Shown: positions 2,130 through 64,000 of the stretch, one piece after another
Numbering within the stretch: the stretch's first letter is position 1
Layout of the letters: each line of letters starts with the position of its first letter
Notes under the pieces: model-generated
Databases searched by the model: none
What the model was told of the DNA's origin: nothing
The model's input: the letters and a program-made list of their open reading frames with translations, nothing else
Translations under genes and position numbers: made by a program
DNA from: Chloroflexota bacterium
GTDB taxonomy: Bacteria; Chloroflexota; Anaerolineae; Anaerolineales; VGOW01
Assembly: GCA_016875735.1 (NCBI GenBank)
Contig: VGOW01000002.1
Coordinates: 62,001-126,000 of the forward strand
Reading direction: 5' to 3'
Length of the DNA stretch: 64,000 nucleotides

Positions 2130-4165
2130 ACAATTCTCGGCCAACGAAAAAGCGCAATCGACACAAGCAAGCCGATCAGACTCAGCGCGAGCCCGATCCA
2201 AACGATCACGGGCCGGAACTCGAACACGATTTCGCGCGACCCTTCGCCGGCCGTTACCGACCGGAAGATTCCATCCCCCTCCACCACTGCCGGGACTCCG
2301 TCAACGCTCGCCGCCCAGCCGGGGTACCACACTTCGGCCAATCGCACCCGGCCCGAACCGTCCGCCGCGATGACGATCCGATTCGGACTCCATGATACCA
2401 ACTCGCCGCCATTCACCCGCCCGCCGTCGAATGTGTTTCTATAAATGCGCGTGTCCCCAATCTGCTCCTGCAACTCCAACCCTTCGGCGTCGATGTCGAA
2501 CTCGCTCAGCACGAATCGCACATTCATTGCTCCGAGCAGCCCGGCTGAAGGAACGGCATCAGCGTTCGCCGTTGCCACCTCTCCATTGAACGGCGGCAGA
2601 GTCACACTGTACCCCGTTCGCGCCACTCCGGTGGCGGCCTCCATAAAAGTGGCGGTGTCCCTCAATTGAATCGGATTCACTCCGTCAGCCTGTTCGATCC
2701 CGGCTTGCGCCGCGTCCAATTGAGTCAGGCTGTACGATGGTGAGTATACTCGCCAAACGCCGGGTTGGCTTTTCAGCCAATCGGCAATTGGGCTGTGCGC
2801 CACCGCCCACGACTCGATCAGCGTGGAATTGACGATCAGCAGTTCAATCGCAGTGATAGCAATCATGATCGGCAATGCGGGTTTGAGTCGCAGAGCAATC
2901 ATCACACCCGTGATCGCAAACGCAGTGGCGAAAAGATTGCCCAACGGTCGCTGCGCCACTGCGCTCCCGCCGAGCGCGAGAGTCCATGCGGCGGCAATGA
3001 GGCCGACCGATGCCAAATTCCATGCGCGCCCTTTCAACCGCCAACCCTCCTCCACAGCCGCCGCGCCGCGCACAGCCAGCCAACTCACTGCCAACCCAAC
3101 GATGAACCACGCTCGCGATGGCACGCGCAATAATGTGAGGCCGGGGGCGCGGGCGAACCATGTGAATAGTCCGGCGCTCGGCCCCAATGCCCACCATGTT
3201 GAGATGAGCGCAAGCATGATCATAGTTAAAATGCCTACGCGATTACGACTCGCGCCCGCGCCGCTAAGAGCAAACGCAAGCGGCGCGATCCCAAGATACG
3301 TCATGTATTCTTGAAAGCCGCCGAGATCGGGAGCGAGCAGGCCGATGAGGTGATTGGCGGGCAACGAAAAGACTCCGGCTTCTTCCATTGTCAGCGCAGT
3401 GCGCGATGAGCGCCGAACAAATTCGAGCATGGGCAGCCACAAGACTGCGGTGAGCAAAAGAAACAACGTAATGCAAATGCCGAGCCCACGCACTCCCACC
3501 CGCGACCGATCCCGCGCTAACCACCACGCCGCCATCACCACTCCCGCGTACACTCCCCAACGCGCATCGGCAAGGAAGCACATGGCCCATGCCAACGATG
3601 AACGATGAACGATGAACGATGAAAGGCTCTGCGTTCTGCATTCCACATTCCGCATTATCCACGGAGTCCACGCCACCGCATACGCCAGCGACACGTGCCC
3701 CGCGCCAATGTGCGCGATCAGTTTCGGCATGGCGGCAAAGGCGAGGCCGCCAACGAGGGCGGGCATCACCCCGAATCCATCGGCGCGCGCCCACCGATAC
3801 ATGCCCCACCCCGCCCACGCAAGATGCAGAAGGAGCAGAAAGTTGAAAGCGAACGGCAGAGGCAGAATGACCGTGAGCCAGTTCGGCGGATACCACAGCC
3901 CGGCCAACGGGTCGGCGGCGAATGGAGCGCCCCCCAGAATCGACGGATTCCACAACGGGAATTGATGGAACTCGAAGAGCGAGCGCCGCAGGAATTCGGC
4001 GTTGGGCCAATGCGAGATCAGCAGATCGGAGAATTGCGATTTGGGATGCGCGAGCGGCTGGCCGGGATGGAGAACGGCAGGCCAGAGGGTGAGGCAGGCC
4101 CAAGCAATGAAAAACAACGGGGCGGCGAATCGGCGCGGCAAGGTGGCAAGATGACAGAATGGCAA
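2126..4165 (-). CDS. YfhO-like polytopic membrane protein
   Basis: A protein of about 679 residues with roughly a dozen hydrophobic segments. Near residue 70 is PLWNPSILGGAPFAADPLAG followed by LWYPPNWL, a motif of YfhO-type membrane proteins. The C-terminal 150 residues form a beta-rich soluble part (VWYPGWAASVDG) and a final membrane helix, as usual in YfhO proteins. No ATG start exists; TTG 4165 and TTG 4141 (MPRRFAAPLFF) are both possible. Positions 3593-3658 inside the gene carry a GATGAAC-type tandem repeat in frame, giving residues such as SSFIVHRSSLAW absent from the family pattern. It is the first gene of a three-gene membrane-protein run and is divergent from plsX. Confidence 0.75.
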   Translation of the reverse strand: MPFCHLATLPRRFAAPLFFIAWACLTLWPAVLHPGQPLAHPKSQFSDLLISHWPNAEFLRRSLFEFHQFPLWNPSILGGAPFAADPLAGLWYPPNWLTVILPLPFAFNFLLLLHLAWAGWGMYRWARADGFGVMPALVGGLAFAAMPKLIAHIGAGHVSLAYAVAWTPWIMRNVECRTQSLSSFIVHRSSLAWAMCFLADARWGVYAGVVMAAWWLARDRSRVGVRGLGICITLFLLLTAVLWLPMLEFVRRSSRTALTMEEAGVFSLPANHLIGLLAPDLGGFQEYMTYLGIAPLAFALSGAGASRNRVGILTMIMLALISTWWALGPSAGLFTWFARAPGLTLLRVPSRAWFIVGLAVSWLAVRGAAAVEEGWRLKGRAWNLASVGLIAAAWTLALGGSAVAQRPLGNLFATAFAITGVMIALRLKPALPIMIAITAIELLIVNSTLIESWAVAHSPIADWLKSQPGVWRVYSPSYSLTQLDAAQAGIEQADGVNPIQLRDTATFMEAATGVARTGYSVTLPPFNGEVATANADAVPSAGLLGAMNVRFVLSEFDIDAEGLELQEQIGDTRIYRNTFDGGRVNGGELVSWSPNRIVIAADGSGRVRLAEVWYPGWAASVDGVPAVVEGDGIFRSVTAGEGSREIVFEFRPVIVWIGLALSLIGLLVSIALFRWPRIV
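3593..3658. repeat. GATGAAC heptad repeat inside a coding region
   Basis: Four tandem GATGAAC-like heptads (3597-3622) are followed by TTCTGCATTCCACATTCCGC-like periodic sequence. The same style of repeat is found between genes at 457-490, 8044-8074 and 8801-8868. Here it lies in frame inside the YfhO-like gene, in a hydrophilic loop. Confidence 0.7.
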
Positions 4166-8801: not shown

Positions 8802-8868
8802 TGAATGCGGAATGATGAACCGGGCGTATCGTTGTTCATCCTTCATCCCTCATCCTTCTTCCTTCGCT
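8801..8868. repeat. Inverted GATGAATG / CATCCTTCAT repeat spacer
   Basis: The spacer between the GT2 and epimerase genes has GATGAATGCGGAATGATGAA on the left and TTCATCCTTCATCCCTCATC on the right, an imperfect inverted arrangement able to form a hairpin. No gene is seen here. Confidence 0.55.
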
Positions 8869-9879: not shown

Positions 9880-9961
9880 TCCAAACTTCAAACATCAAAC
9901 TCCAAACCGCACGACTCGCAGTTTTGAGTTTTGGAGTTTGAGATTGGAGGTTTGAGTTTTT
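9880..9961. repeat. TTTGAG/TTTGGAG inverted repeat spacer
   Basis: The spacer has a left arm rich in CCAAACTTCAAACATCAAAC and a right arm rich in GTTTTGAGTTTTGGAGTTTG, forming an imperfect long hairpin. The same element is found at 47151-47224 and in part at 63109-63135. Confidence 0.65.
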
Positions 9962-26059: not shown

Positions 26060-26256
26060 CTCTCATCTTCCAGAAAAGGGCGATGCGCGCATCGCCCCCA
26101 CATGCCGGAATTGGCACCTTAGATTAGTCGAGTTGTCTTGTAGTCCGCAGTTTCGTAGTCGTTGGATCTCTTGACTATTCGACTACTTGACCACTCGACC
26201 AAAGATAGGTTGCCGAGGCTTCATCGGGCCGGTCCCTCCGCCTCTCTGGATAAGAG
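26060..26256 (-). ncRNA. SAM-I (S-box) riboswitch with enlarged P3
   Basis: Read on the minus strand, the conserved core is complete. P1 is CTCTTATC (26256-26249) paired with GATGAGAG (26067-26060). The P2 region reads GAGGCGGAGGGACCGGCCCG followed by ATGAAGCCTCGGCAACC, and the later core is AAGGTGCCAATTCC with GGAAGATGAGAG closing P4 and P1. These are hallmark SAM-I sequences. The segment between CAACC and GGTGCC, normally a short P3 loop, is about 90 nt long, built of GTCGAGTGGTCAAGTAGTC-like units and a partly complementary return arm. Total length is 197 nt against roughly 110 for typical members. It controls the cystathionine synthase-family gene through a downstream terminator. Confidence 0.95.
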
Positions 26257-47138: not shown

Positions 47139-47150
47139 GAGGCAACTCCA

Positions 47151-47224
47151 AACTTCAAATTTCAAACTTCAAACTTCAAAACTCAAATGCGGGTTTGGGG
47201 TTTGAAATTTGGAGTTTGAAGTTT
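47151..47224. repeat. TTTGAAG/TTTGGAG inverted repeat spacer
   Basis: The gap between the Mo subunit and FeS subunit genes has AACTTCAAATTTCAAACTTC on the left and GGTTTGAAATTTGGAGTTTG on the right around a GC centre. It is the same family as 9880-9961 and would form a hairpin inside the operon mRNA. Confidence 0.7.
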
Positions 47225-59266: not shown

Positions 59267-61985
59267 TCATTGAGAGGGAGAATAGAGACGCGCCAAGCGC
59301 TCGATGGCATGCTGCAGATCGTCGGCCTTGACCGGTTTGGGCACGAAGTCGTCCATGCCCGCTTCCAAACACCGCTCGCGGTCAGACTGCATAGCATAGG
59401 CGGTGAGGGCAATGATGGGCACGTGGCCACCTTCCTCGCGCTCGCGGGCGCGAATGACGATGGTGGCGTTCAAGCCATCGACCTCCGGCATTTGCACATC
59501 CATCAACACCACGTCGAAGCGCAATTCACCAGTGACGGTAACGGCGGCCTGCCCGTTGTTCACCACCATCACCTCGTAACCCCGCTTCTCCAACATGCGT
59601 GTGATCACGCGCTGGTTGATGGCATTGTCTTCGACGAGCAGCACTCGGCGGCCGATGCCCGGCGTCGCAAGCGCGCTGGCCGCCGATGAGGGCTCGCCGG
59701 CGGGCAAGCCGAGCATGGTCGTGAAGTGAAAGACGCTCCCTTTGCCCGGTTCGCTGTCCACCCACAACTCGCCGCCGAATTTCTGGACAAGATCGCGGGC
59801 GATGGCGAGTCCGAGTCCCGTGCCGCCGTATTTGCGAGTCATGCTTCCATCGGCCTGCACGAAAGGCTGGAACAGTTTGCCTTGCTTGTCGAGCGGGATA
59901 CCGACTCCCGTATCGCGCACCTCAATTCCCACCCAGCCTCCCTCGGCGCTGGCCTCCACGGTGACGCCACCCGTCTCCGTAAACTTGATCGCATTGCCGA
60001 TCAAGTTGATGAGTATCTGCCGCAGTTTATCGGAGTCGGCCCACACTCGCAAATTGCTGTCGGCAGGTGGATCCATGCGAAGGTAGAGATTCTTCTCATC
60101 GGCTTGCATCCGCGCCAACAATCGGAGTTCGCTGAACAGGATCGCCAAATCGACGGCCTTCGCTTCGATTTCCATCCGGCCGGCTTCGATTTTAGCAATG
60201 TCGAGCACATTATTGATAATACTCAGCAAATGCTCGGAAGCGGTGTAAGCGATCTGTATAAACTCGCGTTCTTCTTCCGGTTGGTCGCACATGCCATCGA
60301 GCACCATGCTGAGCGAGCCGATGATTCCGGTGAGGGGGTGCGGAGTTCGTGAGACGTGTTGGCCAAGAATTCGCTCTTGAGTTGGCTGGCGTCTTCGGCG
60401 GCGCGGCGGGCCGAATCGAGCCGCGATAGCAATTGCCCGTTCTCCAATGCCAAACTGGCGCGTTCGGCAAAAGCCACCAACATGCGCCGCGTGCGCGCGT
60501 CGAAGGCATCCGCCTCTTGGCTTTCCAGATTCAGCGCCCCAATCACGCGCTCCCCGCTTTTGAGCGGCACGACCATTTCGGAGAGGGTGGCGGCCGAGCC
60601 CGGTGTTGAGCGCGGTGGCGACTTCCCGCAGGGCTTCGGCTTGTCGGTGGGCATCTCGCTTGGCCTGAAACAGCCGCGCATTCTCAATGGCAATCGCCGC
60701 CTGATCGGCTAACAGAGTCAACATTTGCAGTTCGGATTCTGGGACGGTGCGCGGGGCCGGAAAGGCCACGTTCATCACACCCACCACCCTCTGCCCGATC
60801 TTTAATGGCAGGCCGATAATCCCCCCGCTCCACTCGCGAGGGGCGCCGACGAAGAGCGGATGCTGATGCATGTCGGGCACAACGATGGTTCTGCCCTCGC
60901 GGGCCACAGTGAAGGTGAGACCGTTGGGGCGCGGAGAGGCGATCGGCTCCCGCGAGCGGCCATCGGATAACATGGCCGCGCCGAAATGGAGGCGGCCACC
61001 GGATTGGGAATCGAAGATAAAGATATGTGTGTTGCAGTGCGCTCACGCGTTCGCGCTCCGCTTCTTCGGCCTCGTGGCGCTGGATGATGATGCTGGCGAG
61101 GTGCGCGGTGGTGTCGATGAGGCGAAGTTCGTAGGGGCCGGGGGAGCGCGGCTCGCGAAAGTAGAAGGCGATCGTCCCCAACACCTTGCCGGCAGAGGAG
61201 AACGCCGGCTTCGACCAGCACGCGCGCAGGCCGTGCGCCAATGCCGCCTCTCGATAGTCTGCCCACAACTCATCATGCTTAATATCGGAAACGATCACCG
61301 TCTCGCCGCGAAAGGCCGCCGTGCCGCACGATCCCGCTTGGGGGCCGATGGGCAATCCGTCCAGCCCCCCGACGAATTCTTCCGGCAGGCTGAGAGCGAG
61401 GGCGAGCCGCAGGCGCTGGCTCTCGGCGTCGAGGATAGCGATGGAGCACATGGCGCCGGGCAGGCGAGTCTCGACGGCTCGCGCCAGCGTTTCCAGAATC
61501 TGTTGAAAGGGCGAGCCGGAGGCGATGAGTTCGAGGATGGCTCGCTGATCCTCGGAGATGTTTTCCATCTGCCGCCGCTCGGTGATGTCGCGAGCTATCC
61601 ACAACACCTGATCTTCCAGCATGGGGATGGCGGTCGCGGCAAACCAATGCTCGTCGCCGCCCACTTGCAAATCGTATTCGTAGTTTACGGGCTGGCGTAT
61701 TTCGAGCGCGCGCCGGATGATCCCCAAGAACGCATCGGCCTGCGGCTGAGGAAACACCTCGTGGACGGTGTGTCCGATCAGTTCGGCGGCGGGGCGGTAC
61801 AGCAGAGTTGTGTCGGTCGCAGAGACTCTGACAAAACGCCCATCGTAATCTGCCACCAGAATCACGTCGCCTGCCGCGCTGGTCAGCGCACGCAGATCGA
61901 TTTCGGCGGCGGACTCGGGGCGCGGCGTGTCGGCTTTTGGGGATGAGGGCGAAGCGCGGGCACGGCGGGGCCGGGAGGGAGACAT
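59267..61985 (-). pseudogene. Hybrid sensor histidine kinase (PAS-GAF-GAF-HisKA-HATPase-REC), broken by three frame changes
   Basis: Starts at ATG 61983-61985 and would encode about 900 residues. The first part has PAS (VILVADYDGRFVRVSATDTT) and GAF (FQQILETLARAVETRLPGAM). Near 61035, in an ACACACA tract, homology moves to another frame (HIFIFDSQSGGRLHF). A second break near 60595 joins ATALNT to AATLSEMVVPLKSGER in a third frame, and the first half of that GAF domain is missing. A third break near 60345 splits HELRTP from LTGIIGSLSM; one C is missing from a C run. Downstream, the ATPase (LIGNAIKFTETGGV) and receiver (DVVLMDVQMPEVDG) domains are intact to the stop. Either a decaying gene or local assembly errors. 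Confidence 0.8.
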
Positions 61986-62033: not shown

Positions 62034-63110
62034 TCATTCGACGGCGATACTGCCGGGCGGCGCAGTCACGGCCTGCCCAATTCTCCAGCCCGACGACTGC
62101 GCCAAAAATTCGTCCGCCTTTTCGGGGGACACGGCCAGCAACAATCCGCCGCTGGTTTGCGGATCGAACAACAGCATTCGTTCCCAATCGGCCAATGTGG
62201 AGCGGGCCGTAACCCACTGCGAATAGAAGTGCTCATTGCGCTCCGCGCCGCCGGGGAAGATCCACTCGCGGGCGTATTTCTCGGTTCCCGGCAGCCACGG
62301 CAGTGAGGCAAAATCGAAGCGCAGACCACAGCCGGAAAGGTGAGCCATTTCGTGGCCGTGCCCGGCGAGTCCGAAGCCGGTGATGTCGGTGGCGGCGTGA
62401 ACGGCGGAGCCGAGTTGGCGGGCAACGGCGGCGGCCCCCCGATTGAGTCGCCTCATGCTTTCCATGCAGGAGCGCGCGTCCGATTCCTCGGCGCGTCCCT
62501 GTTTGATGGCGGTGGTGATCGTTCCGGCGCCGAGCGGTTTGGTGAGGATGAGCGCGTCGCCGGGGCGCGCGCCGCCTTTGGTGAAAATGTGCGCCGGATG
62601 CACGATGCCGGTGACGGCCAACCCGTATTTGGGTTCTTTGTCGCTCACGGTGTGGCCTCCGGCAATGGCCGCTCCGGCCTCGCGCACTTTTTCGGCGCCG
62701 CCGCGCAGAACTTCGGAAAGAATCTCGGCCGGCAGGTCGTCGGGCCAGGCGACGAGATTGAGGGCAAACAACGGATCGCCGCCCATCGCGTACACATCCG
62801 AGAGGGCGTTGGCCGCGGCAATCGCGCCGAACTCGTAAGGCTCATCCACCACCGGCGGAAAAAAATCGACGGTGGAAATGATGGCCTGCGAGTCGTTGAG
62901 GCGATACACGGCGGCGTCATCCGGCTCGTTCAATCCCACGAGCAATGCCGGGTAATCTTTGGGCTGAAACAGATCGCTCAGCGGCTGAAGCACTTGCCCC
63001 AAAACTTGGGGGTCGAGTTTGGCCGCTCAACCCGCGCATGAGGCAAGCGAGGTGAGTCGTATTTGTTTTCCCGATTGCTGATTGCTGATTGCTGATCGCT
63101 GATTGCTCAT
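62034..63110 (-). CDS. selD: Selenide, water dikinase SelD, a selenoprotein with UGA-encoded Sec28
   Basis: 358 residues when the in-frame TGA at 63027-63029 is read as selenocysteine. From ATG 63110 the N-terminus reads MSNQRSAISNQQSGKQ, then IRLTSLASCAGUAAKLDP, the conserved SelD active site in which U or C precedes the Lys (C25 and U28 here). The rest is canonical: DDAAVYRLNDSQAIISTVDF, SDVYAMGGDPLFALNL, GHTVSDKEPKYGLAVTG, TDITGFGLAGHG, DPQTSGGLLLAV. Without recoding, the only start is TTG 63002, which loses the catalytic residues. SelD makes selenophosphate for selenocysteine and 2-selenouridine synthesis. Its start codon lies inside a GATTGCT repeat. Confidence 0.9.
62992..63029 (-). promoter_or_regulatory. 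Sec codon and putative bacterial SECIS hairpin in selD
   Basis: On the minus strand TGA (63029-63027) is followed, after 15 nt, by CCCCAA (63011-63006), loop GTT, and TTGGGG (63002-62997). A perfect 6-bp stem whose loop lies 22-24 nt after the UGA, with G and U in the loop, fits the bacterial SECIS layout read by SelB. Confidence 0.75.
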
Positions 63111-63135
63111 TTGGAGTTTGGAGCTTGAGATTTGA
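63072..63135. repeat. GATTGCT heptad run plus TTTGGAG repeat
   Basis: About five GATTGCT or GATCGCT heptads (63073-63107) are followed by TTTGGAGTTTGGAGCTTGAG. It covers the first codons and upstream region of selD, so the SelD N-terminal SNQRSAISNQQ segment is encoded by repeat sequence. Confidence 0.8.
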
Positions 63136-63198: not shown

Positions 63199-63987
63199 AT
63201 GAGTGATCGGCTGTCGAGACTCGAAGCGCAGATCGAAAATTTCGTGGAGGGCACGCTCACGCGATTGCTGGCCGGGCGATTGCAGGCGCGCGAAGTGGCC
63301 GTGCGGCTGGCGCGGGCGATGGAGGATCACGCTCACCTCGGGCCCAAAGATGCGCGCCTCGCGCCCCTCTACTATCACGTGCGCATCAACCCCGATGACG
63401 CCGCCGCCCTCCGGCAGTCGTCGCCCGATCTCACCGACGGTCTGCGGGCCGAACTGGTGATCTTCGCCCGCGAACTCGGACTCTCACTGCCCGGCCAACC
63501 GATCATCACCATCGACGCCGACCCGGCCATCGAGCCGAACGGCATCGCGGTGGAAGCCGCCTCGGTTACCTCCAGCCGCGAGACTCGGCCCGTGCCCATT
63601 GCCCGCGCGGAAACCCTGCCCGACTCATCGCCCAAAGCCTATCTCATCGTCAATGGCGAACGGCATGTGCCGCTGGGGCGTTCGGTGATCATGCTGGGCC
63701 GCAAACTCGACAACACCCTCATTCTCGACGATCCGCGAGTGTCGCGGCATCATGCCCAACTGCGCCAGCGATACGGGCGCTGGGTGCTCTATGATCTCGG
63801 CTCGGCCAGCGGAACGTATGTGAACAACCATCGCGTCGAAGAGTGCGTGTTGCGTCCCGGCGATGTGATCGCCATTGCCGACAACTCGCTCATCTACGCC
63901 GAAGAGGAGGCGGCCGGCCCCGGCGACACCGGCGGCACCCTGCCCTTGCGCGCCGACCCGGCCCCGAAGCCAAAGGATGAAGGATGA
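63199..63987 (+). CDS. FhaA-like protein (DUF3662 plus FHA domain)
   Basis: 262 residues. Residues 1-115 match DUF3662, the N-terminal domain of FhaA (SRLEAQIENFVEGTLTRLLA, then ARAMEDHAHLGPKDARLAPL). A Pro/Thr/Ser-rich linker precedes an FHA domain at about 160-235 with the phospho-Thr binding motifs LGRKLDNTLILDDPRVSRHH and SASGTYVNNHRV. In actinobacteria FhaA joins Ser/Thr-kinase signalling with cell-wall and division control. Partner kinases are not in the window; they may follow to the right. The stop is followed by a GGATGAAGGATGAAGG repeat reaching the window edge. Confidence 0.92.
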   Translation: MSDRLSRLEAQIENFVEGTLTRLLAGRLQAREVAVRLARAMEDHAHLGPKDARLAPLYYHVRINPDDAAALRQSSPDLTDGLRAELVIFARELGLSLPGQPIITIDADPAIEPNGIAVEAASVTSSRETRPVPIARAETLPDSSPKAYLIVNGERHVPLGRSVIMLGRKLDNTLILDDPRVSRHHAQLRQRYGRWVLYDLGSASGTYVNNHRVEECVLRPGDVIAIADNSLIYAEEEAAGPGDTGGTLPLRADPAPKPKDEG

Positions 63988-64000
63988 AGGCAGAAGGATG
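63978..64000. repeat. GGATGAAG short-period repeat at the right edge
   Basis: GGATGAAGGATGAAGGCAGA follows and overlaps the FHA stop codon and is cut by the window end. It belongs to the CATCCTT family. Confidence 0.6.

Follow-up and report, generated by a model that had tools for sequence, protein, structure and literature searches.

In the 64,000-nucleotide stretch of DNA analysed here (the window), from an uncultured Anaerolineae-type bacterium, the minus-strand selD gene almost certainly encodes a selenocysteine (Sec)-containing selenophosphate synthetase, the internal UGA of which is predicted to be decoded by means of a hairpin located 15 nt downstream. The features of the gene were as follows:

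62034 to 63110, minus strand: selD coding sequence, read through an internal TGA, 358 residues (matches to TIGR00476 and to E. coli SelD 3u0o)
63073 to 63111, minus strand: 7-bp tandem array that includes ATG 63110 and encodes most of the N-terminal tail (repeat analysis)
63027 to 63029, minus strand: in-frame TGA, predicted Sec codon, residue 28, at the catalytic position (codon comparison of 92 SelD sequences)
62997 to 63011, minus strand: SECIS-type hairpin A, CCCCAA-GUU-UUGGGG, with its loop at 63005-63003 (sequence, fold, recoding and co-variation tests)
62984 to 63000, minus strand: location at which most relatives form the far hairpin B, of which 3/7 pairs remain in the window (comparison with relatives)
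62034 to 62036, minus strand: terminal TGA stop of selD (sequence)

The minus-strand frame from 63110 to 62034 reads MSNQRSAISNQQSGKQIRLTSLASCAG(TGA)AAKLDPQVLGQ... and ends at the terminal TGA, its sole internal stop being the TGA at 63029-63027, which shares a frame with both ATG 63110 and the SelD body. The first in-frame start 3' of this codon is TTG 63002, which opens an ORF of 322 amino acids. When read through, the protein matched the equivalog model TIGR00476 in full length, over profile positions 1-310 (389.5 bits; cut-off 125), and also matched PRK00943 (360.1 bits; cut-off 299) and E. coli SelD 3u0o (E 3.4e-76). The form starting at TTG 63002 scored 361.1 bits against TIGR00476, with a match that began only at profile position 31. 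Both the original prediction that reading through TGA 63027-63029 restores the conserved SelD segment, and its corollary that the TTG 63002 start loses the active site, were thus borne out. Alignment with known SelDs, proposed as a check on the extended protein, placed the TGA opposite the first Cys of GAGCGCK in the E. coli enzyme (3u0o) and opposite the Cys of SGCAAK in that of Aquifex (2yye), such that its U occupies the catalytic Cys/Sec position of the N-terminal loop.

ATG 63110, the only in-frame ATG, is a putative start codon only, because it falls within a heptanucleotide repeat array, at the beginning of the tandem array 63073-63111. The N-terminal tail was likewise found to derive from repeat-like DNA, of other sequence and length, in three of the four remaining genomes of the genus, and in the fourth a Met immediately precedes RLTS. 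A one-copy change in the array would put ATG 63110 out of frame. Period-7 tandem arrays are abundant in the window, with others at 3594-3623, 8835-8865, 9920-9960, 47144-47188 and 63973-64000.

Downstream of selD, a hybrid histidine kinase of PAS-GAF-GAF-HisKA-HATPase-REC architecture (59267-61985, minus strand) was spread over three frames, with breaks near 61000 and 60690 to 60230, and represents either a decaying gene or the product of assembly indels. Divergent to selD lies a gene encoding an FhaA-type FHA-domain protein (63199-63987, plus strand). The window's only Rfam match at gathering cut-offs was a SAM riboswitch (RF00162) at 26060-26256 on the minus strand (70.9 bits).

The Sec machinery that the organism had been expected to carry was sought in the window's genome (4.15 Mb in 150 contigs, 97.8% complete), and all three components were found to co-occur. 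These comprised a SelA match of 552 bits, a SelB of 632 amino acids with GTPase, SelB beta-barrel and two winged-helix domains (SelB-wing_2 and SelB-wing_3), and a tRNA-Sec (anticodon UCA, 76 bits) located at C81:2239-2329, which matches the selenocysteine tRNA model over its whole length and is adjoined by an ordinary tRNA-Cys (GCA). A genome without selB or tRNA-Sec, named beforehand as grounds for abandoning the prediction, was therefore not what the search returned. No second SelD was present in the genome, the only other match being one of 28% over part of the AIR-synthase fold, and matches to rSAM_SeCys were sub-threshold only. The selenouridine gene mnmH (TIGR03167) was not found in the genome, in agreement with the reported absence of the selenouridine trait from Chloroflexi (PMC1794560), a phylum credited in 2006 with three selenoprotein families (PMC1794560).

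A few family searches, by which the selenoproteome was sampled, retrieved at least two further UGA-containing genes of known selenoprotein families, namely formate dehydrogenase and a BCP-type peroxiredoxin. The FdhA gene at L060:1936 (G000:C18) contains an in-frame TGA, DHCARL(TGA)HSSTVAGL, with a hairpin loop GGUCU; its coding sequence also includes an AACTCCA-type repeat stretch near L060:1690-1740, and a further Fdh-alpha match in the genome contained no stop. The peroxiredoxin gene at L149:1621 (G000:C17:50562-50945) contains DDTPG(TGA)AKQASGFRD, in which the TGA is followed by a short hairpin, GCGG-GUU-CCGC, with 17 nt to the loop. We take these TGA codons to be the Sec positions of the two families, that of the peroxiredoxin presumably corresponding to the peroxidatic Cys.

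Some bacteria possess unusual UCA tRNAs that insert Cys, and the UGA of selD might accordingly be read as Cys or as another amino acid. Such a reading is very improbable given the end-to-end match of the UCA tRNA to the selenocysteine model, the ordinary tRNA-Cys adjacent to it and the complete SelA and SelB, and given that UGA is still a terminator in this genome, selD itself ending on TGA. Among 92 SelD sequences, comprising order-level relatives and 11 public contigs, mostly of Chloroflexi/Anaerolineae, the catalytic codon was TGA in 85 and TGC or TGT in seven, so that an in-frame UGA is conserved at the Cys/Sec position; within the genus, every one of the five genomes, the window's included, had TGA. 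Most SelDs among the matches listed from 301 genomes sampled across the phylum likewise contained exactly one TGA.

Two of the seven Cys forms were stand-alone SelDs (L033 and L099), and the other five (L112-L116) were N-terminally extended, with frames of 743-760 amino acids and an extension that, by reading of the sequence, resembles cysteine desulfurase. Cys-SelDs of the latter type coexist with a separate UGA-SelD in three genomes (G053, G075 and G029). A tally from the search tables placed SelA above the cut-off in 66 of the 71 genomes with a full-length UGA-SelD; of the remaining five, two were less than 65% complete, one held a SelA fragment, one a split SelA and one (G009) none. G069 and G041, the genomes that encode a stand-alone Cys-SelD, had no SelA exceeding the cut-off. 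This pattern of UGA or Cys with SelA across genomes is not one that sequencing error or a real stop would yield. Four genomes (G096, G034, G066 and G084, the first of which is 99% complete) had SelA above the cut-off without a clear SelD match, and their SelD may be absent from the assembly or too divergent.

Local errors are conceivable in an assembly of 150 contigs in which the adjacent histidine kinase gene is broken across frames, and resequencing to TGC or TGT had been proposed as an outcome that would overturn the prediction. Nevertheless, it is barely credible that a Cys codon was misread or misassembled as TGA here, since the four remaining genomes of the genus and 80 further SelDs share the codon, TGA recurs across the phylum, and the hairpin is kept in UGA genes and missing from the stand-alone Cys forms. 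Genuine termination at the TGA, with SelD translated from TTG 63002 and lacking its N-terminal loop, is equally hard to credit, even if an automatic caller would select that ORF: the conserved RLTSLASCAG segment preceding the TGA stays in frame throughout the relatives, a SelD deprived of this catalytic loop would presumably not function, and this is the sole SelD of a genome with complete Sec machinery.

Support for Sec decoding also came from the hairpin itself. The perfect 6-bp hairpin that had been predicted was confirmed at 63011-62997, and consists of the stem CCCCAA/UUGGGG and the loop GUU, beginning after 15 nt from the UGA and giving a UGA-to-loop distance of 21 nt. Folding energies were -7.7 kcal/mol (z -1.27) for the 23-nt stretch containing it and -19.6 kcal/mol (z -1.26) for the 54-nt UGA element; compared with shuffles, folding energy alone was not significant for either stretch (z about -1.3), and synonymous recoding was therefore applied instead. 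Under this test the 6/6 pairing of hairpin A gave p 0.03 for the window gene alone and P<=0.0005 for the three genera with the same hairpin, although the recoding P values overstate the evidence as genera are not independent. Published bacterial SECIS (bSECIS) criteria comprise a loop of 3-9 nt, a stem of 4-16 bp, a G within the first two loop positions, a UGA-to-loop distance of 16-37 nt and an energy of at most -7.5 kcal/mol (PMC13188914). Hairpin A agrees with these rules, as the SECIS check proposed with the prediction anticipated, in loop, stem and spacing, and satisfies the energy limit narrowly, at a value unexceptional against shuffles. The window hairpin, with its 3-nt loop of G first and U second, does not depart from the bacterial SECIS model (PMC13188914), and the far position used by its relatives also lies within the model's range.

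Two hairpin positions were distinguished among the 85 UGA-SelD sequences. The near hairpin A, with its loop at +22, was present in 16, including those of family f9 and genus g15, in which the register is one base off and the loop is of 4-6 nt. The far hairpin B, GGCGCAG-GUN-CUGCGCC, with its loop at +34, occurred in 68, some with a bulge or mismatch, and one sequence (L105) had neither; L049, which keeps CGCAA-GTT-TTGCG at the far site, was changed manually from the script label A to B. The window hairpin is thus 12 nt (four codons) closer to the UGA than in most relatives. The recoding test used each gene's own codon use and one sequence per genus, with an A set restricted to the exact register (ten sequences, three genera). 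The A stem in the A set formed 18/18 pairs, against 12.0 +/- 1.6 expected, and the B stem in the B set 324/343 pairs, against 227.6 +/- 7.4 expected. No pairing excess was detected for the B stem in the A set, for the A stem in the B set, or for either stem in the Cys-form SelDs. The loop-adjacent pair was found to co-vary synonymously, CAG with CTG and CAA with TTG, in 10/10 A and 60/68 B sequences.

Hairpin B is spread through the order and most of the phylum loci inspected, and hairpin A was limited, in this sample, to families f1 (that of the window), f9 and f15, from which the far hairpin has been lost. On a SelD tree inferred with the hairpin codons left out, the A/B label required four changes, which would suggest repeated independent origins of the near hairpin; however, constraining the A rows (plus L105) to one clade cost 1.9 log units and was not rejected (p-AU 0.43), and we therefore claim at most one relocation. 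A single 12-nt SECIS relocation in f1, f9 and f15 is the simplest reading of these sequences, though not proven. The protein wording differs along with the hairpin, from an xEALAQVLRP type in B to a DPQVLGQ type in A. It is reasonably likely that the hairpin shifted by 12 nt in this one branch as PxVLG codons arose and AQVLRP codons decayed, with the RNA signal apparently driving amino acid changes. The PxVL wording is acceptable to the SelD enzyme, because it is present in the Cys enzyme of E. coli too (SPKVLET).

The position and conservation of the UGA, the complete machinery and the hairpin can be read directly from the sequences, and from these we infer Sec insertion in vivo, binding of hairpin A by SelB, and catalysis. 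At UGA 63029-63027 the ribosome would not terminate; SelB carrying Sec-tRNA-Sec would bind the downstream hairpin and selenocysteine would be inserted. The Sec residue, in the flexible N-terminal loop, would then help to make selenophosphate from selenide and ATP, which SelA would use to turn Ser-tRNA-Sec into Sec-tRNA-Sec. As SelA uses its product, SelD would help to make its own required amino acid.

Sec-containing SelD, its bSECIS, the exchange of Sec and Cys, and NifS-SelD fusions have been described already (PMC4561486, PMC1794560). The window gene resembles the known Sec-SelD/SPS2 enzymes (Mariotti et al. 2015, PMC4561486; Zhang et al. 2006, PMC1794560) in the UGA at the catalytic position of the N-terminal loop, the bSECIS directly downstream, the SelA, SelB and tRNA-Sec in the genome, and the exchange of Sec and Cys among relatives. 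It differs from them in its uncultured lineage and in a tail derived from a 7-bp array, and from most sampled relatives in a hairpin 12 nt nearer the UGA. The SelD domain of the NifS-SelD fusions (PMC4561486) is related to that of the window, and the order includes a small number of genomes with Cys forms of this kind (L112-L116), but the window SelD is unfused and carries the predicted Sec. A narrow literature search of main texts retrieved no account of a SECIS element being shifted within a SelD gene.

Sec-containing SelD has long been known, and the window gene is a new, probably mis-annotated member of this known kind; these findings leave the known selenocysteine mechanism unchanged. The corrected selD model matters for annotation, in that routine calling would pick TTG 63002 and drop the active site, and the evidence for decoding of UGA as Sec is useful for annotating this lineage. 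The two hairpin positions within one order constitute a small natural experiment in SECIS placement and in the shaping of a protein by an RNA signal that overlaps its coding sequence, and the A and B states permit a direct test of the tolerance of SelB to UGA-to-loop distance.
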